From Malaciobacter mytili LMG 24559 (GTDB lineage Bacteria > Campylobacterota > Campylobacteria > Campylobacterales > Arcobacteraceae), in NCBI RefSeq assembly GCF_003346775.1, contig NZ_CP031219.1:682001-746000 (forward strand): a stretch of DNA of 64,000 nucleotides. The letters are read 5' to 3'. A model generated the notes under the pieces. That model was not told the DNA's origin. It saw nothing but the letters and a program-made list of their open reading frames with translations, and searched no databases. Shown here in pieces: positions 10,644-61,517 of the stretch (positions within the stretch are counted from its first letter, which is position 1; every line of letters begins with the position of its first letter). A program made the translations under genes and the position numbers.

Positions 10644-11804
10644 ATGAATTATGAATTAGCGTATTCAACATTTGATGAAAAAGAAAGAAATGCTATGTAC
10701 AAGATAATCCAAAGTGATATGTTTACAATGGGTAAAAATGTAAAAGCTTTTGAAGAAGAATTTGCATTATTTTTTGGTAAAAAATATGCAGTAATGGTAA
10801 ATTCAGGTAGTTCTGCAAATTTAGTAGGTGTAGCTTCTTTATTTTATAAAAAAGAAAATCCTTTAAATAGAGGTGATGAGGTGATTGTTCCTTGTATTTC
10901 ATGGGCCACTACATATCACCCTTTACAGCAATATGGATTAAAGTTAAAATTTGTAGATATTGATTTAGAAACACTAAATTATGATATAGAGGAATTAAAA
11001 AAAGCAATTACTCCTAATACAAAGATGATAGTTACTGTTTCTATATTAGGAAATCCAAATTATTATGATGAAATAGAAAAAGTTTGCGAAGAAAATAATA
11101 TTATACTATTTGATGATAATTGTGAAGCAATGGGTGCTAAATATAATGGAAAATTTACTGGTACAAGTGGATTAATTAATACTTATTCTACTTTCTTTTC
11201 ACATCATATTTCTACTATGGAAGGTGGATTGATTTTAACAGATGATTATGAAATATATTGTTTATGTAAATCTTTAAGAAATCATGGATGGACAAGAGAT
11301 CAAGAACCTGATAGTCCTATTTACGAAAAAAAAGGCGATGATTTTTTTGAAGCATACAGATTTATATTACCTGGATATAATGTAAGACCAGGTGAGCTTC
11401 AAGGAGCCATAGGCTTGGAGCAAATAAAAAAGTTACCAGATATGCTTATACAAAGAAGAAAAAATGCCCAATATTTTGTATCTAAGTTTAAAGATGATAA
11501 AAGATTTATTATTCAAAAAGAAGTTGGAGAAAGTAGTTGGTTTGCATTTACTCTAATTATTAGTCCAAATAGTAATCTAAAGAGAGATAGTGTTTTTATG
11601 GCTCTTAAAAAAGCTGAAATTGGTTATAGAATAATTACAGGTGGAAATTTCTTAGAGCATGATGTTATAAAATATTTTGATTATGAAGTTACAAAATCAG
11701 AAAATGCAAGTTATGCACATAATTATGGATTTTTTGTAGGAAATTCACCACAAGATATGACAAAAGAAATAGATTTACTATACAAAACATTGAAGGATTT
11801 ATAA
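10644..11804 (+). CDS. ColD/RfbH-like PLP-dependent sugar 3-dehydratase (DegT fold)
   Basis: DegT/DnrJ fold protein of 386 residues. The position that in aminotransferases holds the PLP lysine reads FFSHHISTMEGG, i.e. His-His in place of the lysine. That substitution is the hallmark of ColD (GDP-4-keto-6-deoxymannose 3-dehydratase) and of RfbH/E1-type 3-dehydrases, not of aminotransferases. Much of the chain (FTMGKNVKAFE, SWATTYHPLQQYGL, NPNYYDEIEK, LPGYNVRPGE) also resembles ColD. Predicted: PMP-dependent C3 deoxygenation of a GDP-4-keto sugar, here probably a heptose. An ATG exists at 10617, but AAGG at 10631-10634 favours ATG at 10644. Co-transcribed with the heptose genes. Confidence 0.8.
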   Translation: MNYELAYSTFDEKERNAMYKIIQSDMFTMGKNVKAFEEEFALFFGKKYAVMVNSGSSANLVGVASLFYKKENPLNRGDEVIVPCISWATTYHPLQQYGLKLKFVDIDLETLNYDIEELKKAITPNTKMIVTVSILGNPNYYDEIEKVCEENNIILFDDNCEAMGAKYNGKFTGTSGLINTYSTFFSHHISTMEGGLILTDDYEIYCLCKSLRNHGWTRDQEPDSPIYEKKGDDFFEAYRFILPGYNVRPGELQGAIGLEQIKKLPDMLIQRRKNAQYFVSKFKDDKRFIIQKEVGESSWFAFTLIISPNSNLKRDSVFMALKKAEIGYRIITGGNFLEHDVIKYFDYEVTKSENASYAHNYGFFVGNSPQDMTKEIDLLYKTLKDL

Positions 11805-56575: not shown

Positions 56576-56917
56576 TTATTCATAATTGAAAGCGTTTAGA
56601 TGAAGTGTGTGATCATAACCAGCTGCTAATGAGTTAGCTGCACTAAAAAAATGTTGTTCTAAAGTAGAGTAAGGGTCATCAAAATCATAAACAGCTTTTG
56701 AAACACCTAGTCTATTATAGCTTTTTAGTTGACAATCCAGAGTAAAGTCTTGGCCTCTCTTGATTACTTTAATGGTGTAATTGTGAATATATTTTTCAGA
56801 TATTCTTGGCAATCCACATAGTTGAAGTATATCTTCATACTCAAGGATTTGTGAAATTACATATTCTTCATCTTTGTCTACATGAATAATTAAGTTGCAA
56901 ATACCGTAGTTTGACAT
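56576..56917 (-). CDS. Hypothetical prophage protein
   Basis: 113 residues, no recognised family; acidic, with several His/Tyr (YDHTLHLNAF at the end). Alternates hydrophobic and charged segments as in a small alpha-beta protein. It lies 10 bases after the repressor gene on the same strand, so it is expressed in the lysogen and may influence immunity or host functions. First gene inside the left end. Confidence 0.6.
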   Translation of the reverse strand: MSNYGICNLIIHVDKDEEYVISQILEYEDILQLCGLPRISEKYIHNYTIKVIKRGQDFTLDCQLKSYNRLGVSKAVYDFDDPYSTLEQHFFSAANSLAAGYDHTLHLNAFNYE

Positions 56918-56927
56918 AATGAGTTTC

Positions 56928-57584
56928 CTAAAATGGTCTTATTTTTGCTCTTACTATACCTATAATAGAAAGTGCATCCATCTCTTCTTGGTTCTCTAAC
57001 AGTATATCTCCTGAAAATTCATTTTCACTTTTTAATTTAATCCATTTAAAGAAGGGATCTGCTTCATATCTTTTTATATATACTTGTCCATTTATATTTG
57101 CAACTACTACATCATTGTTCTGAGCTTCGTTTTTTCTTTCAAGTATTACCATCTCACCATTTTGAATAAATGGTTCCATTGAGTCACCAGTTACTTTTAT
57201 CATATCAAGGTTTTTAAACTGTTTTAATCCTAATGATTCTAAGAAGCCTTTATCGAATAACATTGGCACTACATTTGAGTGTCCATTTATTGCACCACCT
57301 CCAGCAGCTGCATATACATTTGGATAATAGTTAACGGTAATAGCTTCAGTTGATACTTCTTTTACAGATGTATTGTTGAACATTTCTCCATTTCCTGTTA
57401 ATAACCAATTGATATTTATATTTTCACCATCACATATTTCTGCAAATTTTTCTGTCATAGTTTTTTGTGATGTCATAAAATTGTTTACATTTTGTCTTGA
57501 TACTGAATATTTTTTTACAATATCAGCATTTTTAATACCAATAAATTCTATCGCGTCACTAAATCGTTTACTTAATTTTGTCAT
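56928..57584 (-). CDS. LexA-like (S24) prophage repressor
   Basis: 218 residues. N-terminal HTH (about 1-65; NADIVKKYSVSRQNVNNFM), hinge with a possible self-cleavage site Ala94-Gly95 (YAAAGGG), and S24 peptidase domain with catalytic Ser135 (GDSMEP) and Lys171 (YIKRY). Keeps the early promoter off; autocleavage would link induction to DNA damage. Phage Mu c repressor is not an S24 protein, so immunity works differently here. AAGGGC precedes the ATG. Confidence 0.9.
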   Translation of the reverse strand: MTKLSKRFSDAIEFIGIKNADIVKKYSVSRQNVNNFMTSQKTMTEKFAEICDGENININWLLTGNGEMFNNTSVKEVSTEAITVNYYPNVYAAAGGGAINGHSNVVPMLFDKGFLESLGLKQFKNLDMIKVTGDSMEPFIQNGEMVILERKNEAQNNDVVVANINGQVYIKRYEADPFFKWIKLKSENEFSGDILLENQEEMDALSIIGIVRAKIRPF

Positions 57585-57624
57585 TTAAAGCCCTTAAAAT
57601 AGGTATTTGAATAATTATGGAAAT

Positions 57625-57662
57625 AAATTATTTACAAAATGCTTGACAAATGTAAATAATTT
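57625..57662. promoter_or_regulatory. Prophage operator palindrome
   Basis: AAATTATTTACA (57625-57636) and its exact complement TGTAAATAATTT (57651-57662) flank 14 bases that contain the early -35 box. Expected repressor site. Confidence 0.65.
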
Positions 57663-57671
57663 GTTTATAAT
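57643..57671 (+). promoter_or_regulatory. Prophage early promoter
   Basis: TTGACA at 57643-57648, 17-base spacer, TATAAT at 57666-57671: full consensus on both boxes, overlapped by the operator. Confidence 0.85.
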
Positions 57672-57677
57672 TTCGAT

Positions 57678-57905
57678 ATGATTTCTTACACATACGAAAG
57701 AAATTATATCACAAATTAAAGCAAATTTATAAATATATATTATAAATTCGATGTTCTTTAACATTTCAACCAGTAGCAACGCAAACGATGACTGGCTAAA
57801 AATTCTAACTAATGTGAGGTAGGACTGTTGTGTAACATTAGGAGTAAGTGTATTTATATTTGAGTCACTATTTGGTGGTTCAATAGTGAATATAAAGGAG
57901 TTGAT
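57678..57905 (+). other. Long structured leader of prophage early transcript
   Basis: About 228 bases between the predicted start site and the first gene. Three hairpins: CCAGT/ACTGG (57770-57795), CTAATGT/ACATTAG (57809-57841) and TCACTATT/AATAGTGA (57865-57889). A 12-codon frame GTG (57848) to TAG (57886) has AGGAG upstream and ends inside the third hairpin. Could be a leader peptide, attenuator or small RNA. Confidence 0.4.
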
Positions 57906-58145
57906 ATGAAAAAATTTAATAAGTTAACTGAGTTGTGTAAAAGTAGATGTTTTAATCTTAGTTTAACTTGGCAAAAAATGACAGATTGGTCTGTTGAGAT
58001 TTATGTAGGTTACAGTAGTGGAAGTTATGAAAAAAAGTTTTATACTGATGGACATTCAAAGAAAAAAGATGCAATAAAAGAAGCAATAAAATATATGAAC
58101 GAACTTGATAAAAAAGGAGCTATTACTATAGCTCCTCAGTTTTAG
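57906..58145 (+). CDS. Small hypothetical prophage early protein
   Basis: 79 residues, basic, no recognised family (SLTWQKMTDWSVEIYVGYSSGSYEKK, then a helix KKKDAIKEAIKYMNEL). The beta-rich start and helix resemble small phage regulatory or anti-host proteins in general only. AAAGGAG and a strong upstream promoter support expression. The gene's last codons overlap a hairpin and the convergent gene. Confidence 0.6.
   Translation: MKKFNKLTELCKSRCFNLSLTWQKMTDWSVEIYVGYSSGSYEKKFYTDGHSKKKDAIKEAIKYMNELDKKGAITIAPQF
58116..58135 (+). terminator. Hairpin at 3' end of early gene
   Basis: GGAGCTAT (58116-58123) and ATAGCTCC (58128-58135), 4-base loop, followed by TCAGTTTTAG. Possible terminator separating the leader gene from the transposase unit. 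Confidence 0.5.
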
Positions 58146-58336
58146 TCTTGTTTTATGTAATAGCCTAAAGGAAACTCTCCTGGACTAATGTTTCTTTTTA
58201 AAAACTCATCTGATAAGGCATTGTCATACTCTTGCCAAATACTTGGATGAGTTTTTTCTAAAACTTTTAGAAGAGCTGCTATTTTTGCATCGGTAATGCA
58301 CTCTTCACTTTTAAGATATTCTTCTGAGCTGTTCAT
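58142..58336 (-). CDS. Small hypothetical prophage protein, divergent from Ner-like gene
   Basis: 64 residues, acidic helical N-terminus (SSEEYLKSEECITDAKIAALLKVLEK), no known family. It has AAGGA 8 bases before the ATG and its own promoter, so it is probably real. Its stop overlaps that of the plus-strand gene by four bases. Divergent promoters with the Ner-like gene suggest a role in the regulatory switch. Confidence 0.6.
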   Translation of the reverse strand: MNSSEEYLKSEECITDAKIAALLKVLEKTHPSIWQEYDNALSDEFLKRNISPGEFPLGYYIKQD

Positions 58337-58372
58337 ATTTAAGTCCTTTTTGTTGTGTTTTGTTGCGAATTT

Positions 58373-58401
58373 ATCATAGCAAACAAGGGCTTAACTGTGA
58401 A
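58373..58401 (-). promoter_or_regulatory. Predicted promoter of 64-residue minus-strand gene
   Basis: Minus strand: TTCACA (58401-58396), 17 bases, TATGAT (58378-58373). Confidence 0.5.
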
Positions 58402-58403
58402 TA

Positions 58404-58431
58404 TTGATAAGAGATAATAGTTTGTTATAAA
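58404..58431 (+). promoter_or_regulatory. Predicted promoter of ner-like/transposase operon
   Basis: TTGATA (58404-58409), 16 bases, TATAAA (58426-58431). Its -35 box is 2 bases from that of the divergent promoter, so one bound protein could affect both. Confidence 0.5.
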
Positions 58432-58458
58432 TGTTTTAAAGTAAGTTAAAGGAAAATA

Positions 58459-58704
58459 ATGAAAAAAAGTTTAAAAGATATGAATTTACGTGAACGATTT
58501 GATTCACGTGGTTTTTCTCCCATGGCCTATGCAAAAGCTTTTGGAGTAGATAGAAGTACTTTATATGATGTATTTAAAGGTAATTCAACTGGAACAAAGC
58601 AAAGCAATAAAAAAAGTGGTGATGTACGTAAGATTATTGCACAGCTTAAAAAAGATAAGGTTTGGATAGGACCACTTCCATGGGAGAAAAAAGAGGAGCA
58701 ATAA
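58459..58704 (+). CDS. Ner-like HTH regulator
   Basis: 81 residues: RERFDSRGFSPMAYAKAFGVDRSTLYDVFKGNSTG is a helix-turn-helix of the Ner/Cro kind, followed by a basic tail and WIGPLPWEKK. In Mu, Ner lies just before the transposase gene and turns early transcription down; same position here, one base before the transposase start. AAAGGAAA precedes the ATG. Confidence 0.8.
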   Translation: MKKSLKDMNLRERFDSRGFSPMAYAKAFGVDRSTLYDVFKGNSTGTKQSNKKSGDVRKIIAQLKKDKVWIGPLPWEKKEEQ

Positions 58705-58705
58705 A

Positions 58706-60802
58706 ATGGAATTTACAAGTAAAAAGTTACAAGACTTATTAGAATTATCTCATGTAGCTTTAGTTAATGCATTGAAAAATATTCCTTGCAAATCTAAAAA
58801 AATTGAAAGTTCTACAAGACCTGTCAAACATTATCAGTTTGAGGATTTACCTAAGCGTTATCAAAAGAAGCTTGAGAAACATGGATATAAACTAGAGACA
58901 AAAGAAGAGACTATTAATATTGGCTTTACAAGTGTTTATTTGACTGCAAGTAAACACAAAAGAGAAAAGGCAATTTTAAAATGTCAGTTTATTGAAAAGT
59001 ATTTTAAACGTGATGACAATATGAACCAAGAGCAGTGGTTGAGACATATACTAAGAGTAAGTATTGATTTTGATGTGCTTGGAAAGGTATCAACTAAACA
59101 GCTGAATGATTGGATAGCCAAATATAAAGCTGCTAAACAAGCTGGTACAAATGTTGTTGAAGCTTTTATTGATAGACGAGGTGCAAAAGCTGGAGCTGGT
59201 GTTAAGAGTTTAAGTGAAGAGATGAAAAAGGTTGCAGAAGCTTACTTTATCAAAGATACATTTATTCAGATAACTGATGTGCATTTGAATATGCTTGATA
59301 AGTTTGGTGAAACATTACCATCATATGATGTTTTATTGAATTATTACAAAGAGTGGAAGCGAGATAATCCATTACTTTATGCATTTGCACAATCACCTGA
59401 TGGTGCAAAGAATAAGTTTAAACCAGCAGTTGGAAATATGAGTGCGAAAGCCAAGCATAAAAACCATTATTGGGAACTTGACTCGACACCTGCAGATATT
59501 ATATGTGAAGATGGAAAGCGTTATGCTATTATGGCTGCAATGGATGTTTATTCAAGAAGAGTGGTTTTTCATGTAGCTGAAACATCTAACTCTTATAGTA
59601 TTGCACAGCTTTTAAGAAAAGCCATACTTACACTTGGTATTCCACAAAATGTTATTATTGATAATGGTAAGGATTATACATCAAATCACTTTATGAGTGT
59701 TTGTTATAACTTAAAAATTAATCCTATCATTGTACCACCATTTAGTGGAGAGAAAAAGCCACATATTGAGAGAGTTTTTGGAACATTATCAAGACAGCTT
59801 TTTATGCAAGTAGCTGGATTTGTAGGAAGTAATGTATCTCAAAGAGAAAAGATACAAGCAAGACAATCTTTTGCACAAAAGGTTAACTCTATTGAGGCAT
59901 GGAGAGCTTTACAGAGTAAAAAGACACCTGATGAGAGAAAGCAAATAAGAGATGCTTGGAAGATTAAAAAAGAGAACTTAGGTTTAGAGCTGAATGTTTT
60001 AAAAACAGCAAACGAACTGCAAGATATGTGTGATAAATGGGTTCATAGAATTTATGAGCGAAAAGTTCATAAAAGTATTGAGATGACACCTGTTGCAAAG
60101 TGGCAACAATGTGTGATTCCTGCTGAGAGTATTTCCGATCCAAATATGTTGAATTTATTACTTGGTGAAAGTGTTATTAGAAAAGTAGGAAAAAAGGGAA
60201 TTAGTTTTGATAAGTGCAATTATGCACATGAGAAACTAATTGAGCATTTAGGAAAAAGTGTTTTTATCTTGGCTCCTGATGATATGGGATATATCTTTGT
60301 TCATGATATGAATATGAATTTCATTTGTATAGCTGAAGATTTAGAACATACTGGACAAAGTAGAGCAGTGTCTAAAAAAATTGAGAGTAAATGGAATGCA
60401 CTTACACGGCATCTTGACAAAATGTTAAAAGAAGCTAAGAACTTAGCTGATGTAACAATTGAAACAAGAATAGAAAATATCAAAGATGAAGTTGATACTT
60501 ATACAATAACAGTTCCAAAGCAAAGTGAGATGATTGATGCATTGAAAAGAAATGCACTAATTATTGAAACTGAAGATTTGAAAGCTTTAGAAAAATCAAA
60601 CAAATTTGACTTTAAAAATAAAGATGAAAGTGGAAAGCCAACTAAAGTATTGCCAAGCGGAAGACCACCTTTTAAATCTAAAGTTGAAAGATTTGTTTGG
60701 GTTCTTGAACACCAAGACAAAATGAATGATAGAGACAAAGTATTGATGGATAAACATCCTGATTTAGTAGAGATTGCAAAACAACAATTAAAAATATCAT
60801 AA
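58706..60802 (+). CDS. MuA-type DDE transposase
   Basis: 698 residues, close to MuA. N-terminal HTH region that binds element ends (about 1-70), a helical domain, then the integrase-fold core with catalytic D about 258 (ELDSTPAD), D about 319 (IIDNGKD) and E about 355 (KPHIERVFG), a D-35-E spacing. The Mu-type C-terminal beta-barrel and a basic tail follow. Carries out replicative or conservative transposition of the prophage. All catalytic residues intact. Followed by the MuB-like gene after 10 bases. Confidence 0.93.
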   Translation: MEFTSKKLQDLLELSHVALVNALKNIPCKSKKIESSTRPVKHYQFEDLPKRYQKKLEKHGYKLETKEETINIGFTSVYLTASKHKREKAILKCQFIEKYFKRDDNMNQEQWLRHILRVSIDFDVLGKVSTKQLNDWIAKYKAAKQAGTNVVEAFIDRRGAKAGAGVKSLSEEMKKVAEAYFIKDTFIQITDVHLNMLDKFGETLPSYDVLLNYYKEWKRDNPLLYAFAQSPDGAKNKFKPAVGNMSAKAKHKNHYWELDSTPADIICEDGKRYAIMAAMDVYSRRVVFHVAETSNSYSIAQLLRKAILTLGIPQNVIIDNGKDYTSNHFMSVCYNLKINPIIVPPFSGEKKPHIERVFGTLSRQLFMQVAGFVGSNVSQREKIQARQSFAQKVNSIEAWRALQSKKTPDERKQIRDAWKIKKENLGLELNVLKTANELQDMCDKWVHRIYERKVHKSIEMTPVAKWQQCVIPAESISDPNMLNLLLGESVIRKVGKKGISFDKCNYAHEKLIEHLGKSVFILAPDDMGYIFVHDMNMNFICIAEDLEHTGQSRAVSKKIESKWNALTRHLDKMLKEAKNLADVTIETRIENIKDEVDTYTITVPKQSEMIDALKRNALIIETEDLKALEKSNKFDFKNKDESGKPTKVLPSGRPPFKSKVERFVWVLEHQDKMNDRDKVLMDKHPDLVEIAKQQLKIS

Positions 60803-60812
60803 GGAGATATAT

Positions 60813-61517
60813 ATGCAGCATAAATTTATTACAACAGATAATTATATTATGTGCTTAGAAGCACTTAAAGAGTTAAAAGATTTACCAAGAGATATGGAAA
60901 AAATGGGCTTATTTTTTGGAAATGCGGGAAGAGGTAAAAGTTTAATTATTGAAAGATTATCAGCAGAACTAGATGCTGCTTTAGTTAGAACTCTTGGTGG
61001 ATGGACAGCTAAAAGTATGCTTATAGATATATGTTTTGAGTTAGGTTTGGATGATAAAGGATCGACTGCAACTTTACAAAATAGAGTAATTGATGAATTA
61101 ACTGAGCATCCAAGAATTTTGATAATTGATGAAATAGATACTTTATTTGAAAACAATAAAAGGATTTTACTTGTAATGCTAAGAGATATACATGATGTTG
61201 CAAAGACACCTATTGTTTTTACAGGAATGGAACAATGTGAAAAGAAGTTTAAAAAAGATGCACATTATTATGATCGATTTGCAAGAAAAATTAAGATGAT
61301 TCCTACTACTTTAAATGATATACGAAGATTATGTGATAGTTCAACAATTAAAATTGAAAATGATTTAGTTGAATATTTACATAATAAGTATAGAAATTTT
61401 AGACCAATAAAAGTTCTAATTACTGCCCTTGAAAACTATTGTGAACTTAATGATTATGATAGTGTTGATTTAAAAACTTTTAAAGCAAGTGAAGTGGAGA
61501 AAATAAATGAACATTGA
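60813..61517 (+). CDS. MuB-type AAA+ ATPase, target-DNA activator
   Basis: 234 residues: Walker A GNAGRGKS (36-43), Walker B ILIIDEID (102-109), and VFTGMEQCEKKF sensor region. It delivers target DNA to the transposase and gives target immunity in Mu. Shorter than MuB (312), lacking the N-terminal HTH domain, as in other D3112-like phages. AAGGAG precedes the ATG. Overlaps the next gene by 11 bases. Confidence 0.88.
   Translation: MQHKFITTDNYIMCLEALKELKDLPRDMEKMGLFFGNAGRGKSLIIERLSAELDAALVRTLGGWTAKSMLIDICFELGLDDKGSTATLQNRVIDELTEHPRILIIDEIDTLFENNKRILLVMLRDIHDVAKTPIVFTGMEQCEKKFKKDAHYYDRFARKIKMIPTTLNDIRRLCDSSTIKIENDLVEYLHNKYRNFRPIKVLITALENYCELNDYDSVDLKTFKASEVEKINEH

Follow-up and report, generated by a model that had tools for sequence, protein, structure and literature searches.

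A probable exchangeable accessory gene on the antisense strand of the early operon in a Malaciobacter mytili Mu-like prophage

The locus examined lies in Malaciobacter mytili LMG 24559 within a stretch of 64,000 nucleotides (C1:682001-746000 of a 3.0-Mb genome in two contigs; hereafter the window), and forms the left part of a Mu-like prophage whose right end falls past the window at an estimated position of ~C1:770,400. From left to right, the order was found to be: S24 repressor gene (−), early promoter Pe (+), e79 (+), m64 (−), Ner-like gene (+), and the MuA and MuB genes. An earlier note on this DNA had proposed a Mu-like phage with an S24 repressor, and this was borne out by a MuA-type DDE transposase (58706..60802, +; rve and Mu-transpos_C; phrog_310, 3.6e-73), a MuB-type ATPase (60813..61517, +; TniB/AAA_22; phrog_296, 1.6e-30) and a Peptidase_S24 domain in the repressor; a transposase that carries the Mu C-terminal domain, with a MuB-type ATPase next downstream, was taken as the mark of a Mu-like phage. 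The prophage genes recognised were those of transposase, MuB, endolysin, head protease, tail sheath, tape measure and baseplate, the last four of which represent a Mu-type head and tail module downstream in the same stretch. The open reading frames were likewise located as the note had described (e79, 57906-58145, +; m64, 58142-58336, −; Ner-like gene, 58459-58704, +), with e79 and m64 converging such that their stops share 4 nt (58142-58145), and the transcripts of the two genes would overlap in antisense. The early region of phage Mu follows the same plan, with a divergent repressor and Pe, a ner-like gene, and transposase A followed by B. Phage Mu is not known to have an S24 repressor or an antisense gene between Pe and ner.

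Relatives of the prophage were collected by several searches. When 104 genomes of the family were searched for the transposase, full-length relatives of 51-64% identity were recovered in seven other genomes, one of which carries a second, broken transposase copy; an alignment search yielded eight loci from genome contigs, some of which are the same phages, as well as 80 that were kept from IMG/VR, about 15 of them close. A scan of viral contigs by transposase alone gave no match. A profile of the Ner-like protein had matches in 18 genomes out of 398 from the order. Among the named relatives are Aliarcobacter vitoriensis, Arcobacter sp., Sulfurimonas sp. and Campylobacteraceae MAGs. The comparison panel comprised 38 oriented loci, with Pe identified in 27; these relatives are not independent, and counts based on them overstate the number of independent events.

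The repressor (56928..57584, −) is of the LexA/CI type and matched Peptidase_S24 (PF00717, 1e-17; 64.3 bits, above the curated cut-off of 23.3) and the phrog_4 repressor family (1.2e-31). A 113-aa minus-strand gene without a family match follows it (56576-56917), and another S24 repressor-like gene, which shares 33% identity with the first across 159 aa, is located beyond the window near the right end of the prophage (L044:17713-18360; C1:769713-770363). Pe (57643..57671, +) matched the sigma-70 promoter at 12 of 12 positions and was detected at the corresponding position of another 26 loci. It is overlain by a 16-nt inverted repeat (57621..57666; 15/16 complementary, 14 nt apart) that we interpret as the probable operator of the repressor. 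No second copy of this sequence was found near m64 or ner, and control of the m64 promoter by the repressor was dropped for that reason. By eye, the operator-like sequences over Pe sorted with the N-terminus of the repressor (GAAACAATTTGTTT versus TGTAAATAA), the groups being the Pe regions of L037, L038 and L087 versus those of L036, L039 and L043.

The leader downstream of Pe has a boxA-like sequence, TGTTCTTTAACA (57752..57763, +), whose 9-nt core is that of the host rRNA leaders; the exact core was obtained in 0 of 300 shuffles, and TTGAGTTCTTTAAAAAC is common to all six host rRNA leaders. In L040 and L087, the match to the host rRNA boxA sequence extended to 17 of 17 positions, 62-63 nt after the Pe −10 element. 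When the 27 leaders were compared, the core was exact in seven, had one mismatch in six and had two or more mismatches in 14, and is thus a feature of many leaders and not of all. Antitermination at boxA is established for rRNA operons and lambdoid phages. The rRNA-type boxA at Pe could allow RNA polymerase to continue as far as ner; passages of PMC11893012 describe lambda-type antitermination in non-lambdoid coliphages. A structured leader RNA between Pe and the first hairpin (see below) was also suspected by eye and was rejected, as its folding energies did not differ from those of shuffles (mean z −0.23 for 15 of 17 leaders, two being skipped for length). Separately, the Pe leaders of L038, L040, L081, L082, L087 and L090 were seen to have a short stem, variable in sequence, that encloses a TACCAAGAAAAGAAAA-like loop; by eye, the stems covary.

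The first early gene, e79, was predicted to encode a dsRBD-like fold (alpha-beta-beta-beta-alpha, pLDDT 74). Double-stranded RNA-binding domains headed the list of structural neighbors at Z 7.9, with HPF/YfiA, T7 gp1.2 and SPO1 Acb4 close behind at 6.5-6.7, values below 8 that may reflect merely a common arrangement. Foldseek gave no match at E 0.001 or better, Pfam gave no dsRBD match, and comparison with the sequences of solved structures returned repeat-protein noise alone. Relatives of e79 were detected in one IMG/VR contig and in 2 of the 104 family genomes, with a 40% match in Tenacibaculum phage pT24 and no match among plasmids. An e79-like domain was also observed within a 148-aa protein of a related prophage (L041:2648-3094, −), which suggests that e79 belongs to a domain family reused in the early region.

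Homologues of m64 were found at the same place and on the same strand in L037 and L039 (54% identity) and in L095 (60% identity), where the gene adjoins an e79 homologue (69% identity) with the two still converging. Since the L095 transposase is merely 34.5% identical to that of the window, the e79 and m64 pair has moved between phages. The dN/dS ratio of m64 was 0.18 (L037/L039), 0.27 (window/L037) and 0.12 (window/L039), and that of e79 was 0.11 (window/L095), all loose estimates as dS is large in the distant pairs and not computable for one. The C-terminus of m64 is conserved as SPGE..LGY. From these comparisons, m64 is a real protein-coding gene under purifying selection. It was present in 3 of the 104 family genomes, each with a prophage of this kind, and in one IMG/VR contig; no relative was detected among annotated phage records. 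A candidate paralogue in the host genome was discarded, as the 37-nt match at C1:577067 falls by chance in an unrelated gene. Searches of Pfam, PHROGs and NCBIfam together with structure comparison revealed no family match and no DNA-binding or regulator signature for m64, which was predicted with low confidence to form two helices without structural match. A terminator-like hairpin and T run for the m64 transcript (58114..58137, −) lie within the 3′ end of e79, and the hairpin at the e79/m64 junction had a z of −4.05.

The joint and convergent occurrence of e79 and m64 in the window and L095 would fit a matched pair in which one product inhibits the other (e.g., a lysogen defence protein and its early inhibitor), for which the inhibition of Tha by Ith provides a precedent in the account of PMC11087260. 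However, m64 stands beside an unrelated 68-aa plus-strand gene in L037 and L039, there was no toxicity match, and defence models matched none of six proteins, m64 included; a matched pair is thus unlikely.

The position held by m64 was examined across the panel by scoring minus-strand open reading frames between Pe and the transposase gene (ATG start, at least 60 aa, SD match of 5/6). Under these fixed criteria, such genes were present in 13 of the 27 phages (14 ORFs) and lacking in the other 14, at a density of 0.45 per kb; the transposase genes, by comparison, had a single such ORF on their minus strand (0.018 per kb). Four of the 14 ORFs are m64, and the remaining ten have no relatives among the 14 (E 1e-3); two of them, in L094, overlap each other. 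Two longer minus genes, related to each other, occur in L087 and in L089, a locus in which no Pe was identified. The convergent stops lie close together: of the 15 pairs analysed, 14 overlap by 0 to 33 nt and the other by 80 nt, and the best junction hairpin had a z of −2 or lower in nine. The finding that related viruses hold quite different genes in this slot points to an exchangeable gene rather than a second on/off switch. A plus-strand gene of about 60 aa (family F2), absent from the window, was also noted directly upstream of the Ner-like gene in L035, L037, L042, L077, L081, L084 and L090, where it is conserved.

A two-tier hairpin, in which UUAAGUCCU-loop-AGGGCUUAA is flanked by a second stem across a small internal loop, was identified upstream of ner and found to be repeated ahead of the first early gene in several phages. 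In the window, the first copy (57849..57894, +), a UUGAG variant with a computed fold, is just before the SD of e79, and the second (58329..58404, +) is between m64 and the Ner-like gene. For the pairing analysis, 26 hairpins were found by a fuzzy match to the right arm, with the left arm picked by TTAAG and pairing; left out were (i) the near-duplicate or duplicate loci L083, L085 and L089, (ii) fuzzy hits outside any inverted repeat, and (iii) the variants L043 e1, L042 e1, the first L036 copy, L095 and the first hairpin of the window. This selection of arms is biased and inflates both the pairing of the inner stem (233 of 234 positions over nine pairs) and the z of the hairpin fold; we therefore relied on the outer stem and its ratio of G-U to A-C. 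The outer eight pairs were paired at 191 of 208 positions (150 Watson-Crick and 41 G-U, against six A-C and 11 other), and two adjacent pairs vary among the elements as CC/GG, TC/GA, CT/AG and TT/AA. When the arms were shuffled among elements, pairing reached a mean of 182.6 and a maximum of 189 of 208; thus, covariation as such is modest. A DNA palindrome, by comparison, should give G-T and A-C at about equal frequency, and the excess of G-U indicates that the hairpin acts as a plus-strand RNA.

An alternative is that the hairpin serves as a DNA operator for Ner or the repressor, as inverted repeats between divergent promoters often do, and the m64 promoter itself forms part of the conserved right arm. 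This is improbable given that (i) G-U outnumbers A-C by 41 to 6 in the outer stem, (ii) the distance between the arms varies from 5 to 78 nt, and (iii) the element also precedes genes that lack a minus promoter, and occurs in contigs without a seen transposase. Ahead of the first early genes, the 3′ strand of the hairpin reaches almost straight into the SD, from which the most likely role, as a guess, would be protection or processing of the 5′ end of the early gene block. Rfam gave nothing at gathering score in nine loci and two chance-level matches in the window region. The exact 19-mer GGGCTTAACYGTGAATATT occurs once in the genome itself and in five IMG/VR contigs: L087 and L090 of the panel, the Mu-like L176, and L177 and L178. 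The last two (motif at 11121 and at 1658, −, respectively) have the hairpin-promoter element with no transposase in the stretch examined; in L177, the element is accompanied by a minus gene resembling the one in L089, which is followed by a ParA-like gene. Searching with a gapped hairpin pattern gave no match when the loop range was short and returned three contigs when it was widened. As a side observation, a TTGCGAATTT-like sequence recurs in the hairpin loops of L037, L042, L043, L080, L084 and L161, and resembles the reverse complement of TTCGCAAAAT, a motif over Pe in L042 and L080.

The earlier note had further described m64 and the Ner-like gene as a second divergent pair, with −35 boxes 2 bases apart, that forms a second switch before ner. 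The spacing was confirmed when the rightward promoter was taken as TTGATA/TATAAA. The m64 promoter (58373..58401, −; −35 TTCACA, 17, −10 TATGAT; 10/12) falls within the right arm and loop of the second hairpin, while a doubtful rightward ner promoter (58404..58431, +; TTGATA-16-TATAAA) also scored 10/12, with 8.3 expected from shuffles. Promoter-like matches in this AT-rich region were not clearly above chance (16 found versus 10.9 ± 3.7 expected), such that conservation must decide, and best sites barely exceeded shuffles (mean excess of 0.34 on the plus strand and 0.72 on the minus strand in the 11 elements with a minus gene), such that position counts more than score. On this basis the leftward promoter passes and the rightward one fails. 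A minus −10 of TANNAT was present at a fixed position of the right arm in all 11 elements beside a minus gene and in none of the 15 others, and under a different filter this fixed site again ranked first among minus promoters in 10 of 11; the rightward site scored only 3-8 in the other 25 elements. By this conservation, the leftward m64 promoter is real. TANNAT was also seen by eye in three further IMG/VR elements, L176-L178.

Thus, what stands of the second divergent pair is a minus gene with a conserved promoter of its own, and the promoter on the ner side does not extend to the relatives. A switch in which the products of m64 and the Ner-like gene regulate their shared region, with ner read from its own promoter, would draw on the 10/12 rightward site of the window, 2 bases from the m64 −35, and on the Ner-like product being an HTH protein (phrog_925, 1.6e-5). 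No Ner model was matched in Pfam, PHROGs or NCBIfam, the only named family being BcepMu gp16 at 21.5 bits, below its cut-off of 34, and the label Ner is here positional. The two-switch design was not upheld: the rightward promoter is unconserved, 14 of 27 phages lack a minus gene by the fixed criteria, and m64 has no DNA-binding signature, its two predicted helices are without match, and elsewhere it is replaced by unrelated proteins. We assign this design a low probability; nonetheless, the window site leaves room for a separate ner start, which counts against the accessory-gene model below. The temperate phage P22 likewise has a second divergent control region (immI, mnt/arc), whose products are both repressors; m64, unlike these, has no sign of being one. 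Lastly, the short length of m64 and its lack of a family match might suggest a decayed or chance ORF without consequence. This is very improbable, as the gene is conserved in four phages, its dN/dS is low and its C-terminal SPGE..LGY is conserved.

Overall, we consider it fairly probable that m64 is an exchangeable accessory (moron-type) gene placed antisense in the early operon, on in the lysogen and shut off by Pe. The gene, its promoter and the RNA pairing rest on comparison, and it is from these that we infer the expression outlined here. In the lysogen, the S24 repressor would silence Pe, and m64 would be transcribed from its own promoter to its own terminator. Upon induction, Pe, presumed to be stronger and boxA-modified, would transcribe through e79, the terminator hairpin and the whole of m64 in antisense; m64 would be shut off by promoter interference once Pe fires, and ner, MuA and MuB would be switched on from Pe by read-through. 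Early gene blocks open with the conserved RNA hairpin ahead of the ribosome-binding site. The presence of the hairpin element with a minus gene in contigs without a seen transposase was also counted in favor of the accessory-gene model, as was the restriction of the repressor operator to Pe. Weighing against it are the two or more mismatches to the boxA core in 14 of the 27 leaders and promoter scores that by themselves hardly exceed those of shuffles.

In the literature searched, neither this slot nor the hairpin was found to be described for Mu-like phages. A close likeness is to the noncontiguous operons of staphylococcal phage 80alpha, in which, according to passages of PMC11087260, tha/ith are subject to mutual exclusion by antisense transcription. 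Both systems would have a small antisense gene with its own promoter inside a long phage operon; here, the gene and its promoter are conserved, and read-through from Pe to ner is predicted. In 80alpha, lysogenic and lytic expression are mutually exclusive via antisense transcription (PMC11087260), a pattern that would be predicted here as well. The antisense gene described for 80alpha is a lytic-phase gene inside the cI operon, whereas here it lies inside the lytic operon, and, as far as tested, the proteins here bear no relation to Tha/Ith. Pseudomonas phage Fc02, a transposition-type (B3-like) phage, is described as carrying olg1/gene 10, a lysogen-transcribed exclusion gene opposite the ner-side early genes (PMC9936078). 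Its antisense genes, as given there, lie wholly over coding genes and are transcribed from the region of the repressor promoter; unlike these, m64 is located ahead of ner and is furnished with a promoter and terminator of its own. A Mu-like prophage of the same bacterial group, AMLP1 of Arcobacter butzleri, is reported in PMC2147049, and some panel members may be close to it.

If the accessory-gene reading is right, prophages could carry lysogen-only genes without a dedicated repressor, antisense placement in the lytic operon being sufficient. The variable slot (13 of 27 occupied) would then supply a list of small, uncharacterised proteins from a little-studied group of bacteria as candidates to test for roles in defence or phage exclusion, and the hairpin and rRNA-like boxA would be testable cis signals in Mu-like phages. 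A broader and more tentative possibility is that temperate phages of the Campylobacterota share a portable early-operon module, consisting of a leader whose boxA mimics that of rRNA, a cis-acting two-tier RNA hairpin at the start of each early gene block, and, flanked by two such hairpins, an exchangeable convergent pair. Its minus-strand member would be a lysogen-only defence or exclusion gene, switched off through collision with lytic transcription. Were this true, the hairpin would represent a new class of RNA, and new anti-phage genes could be sought in the slot.
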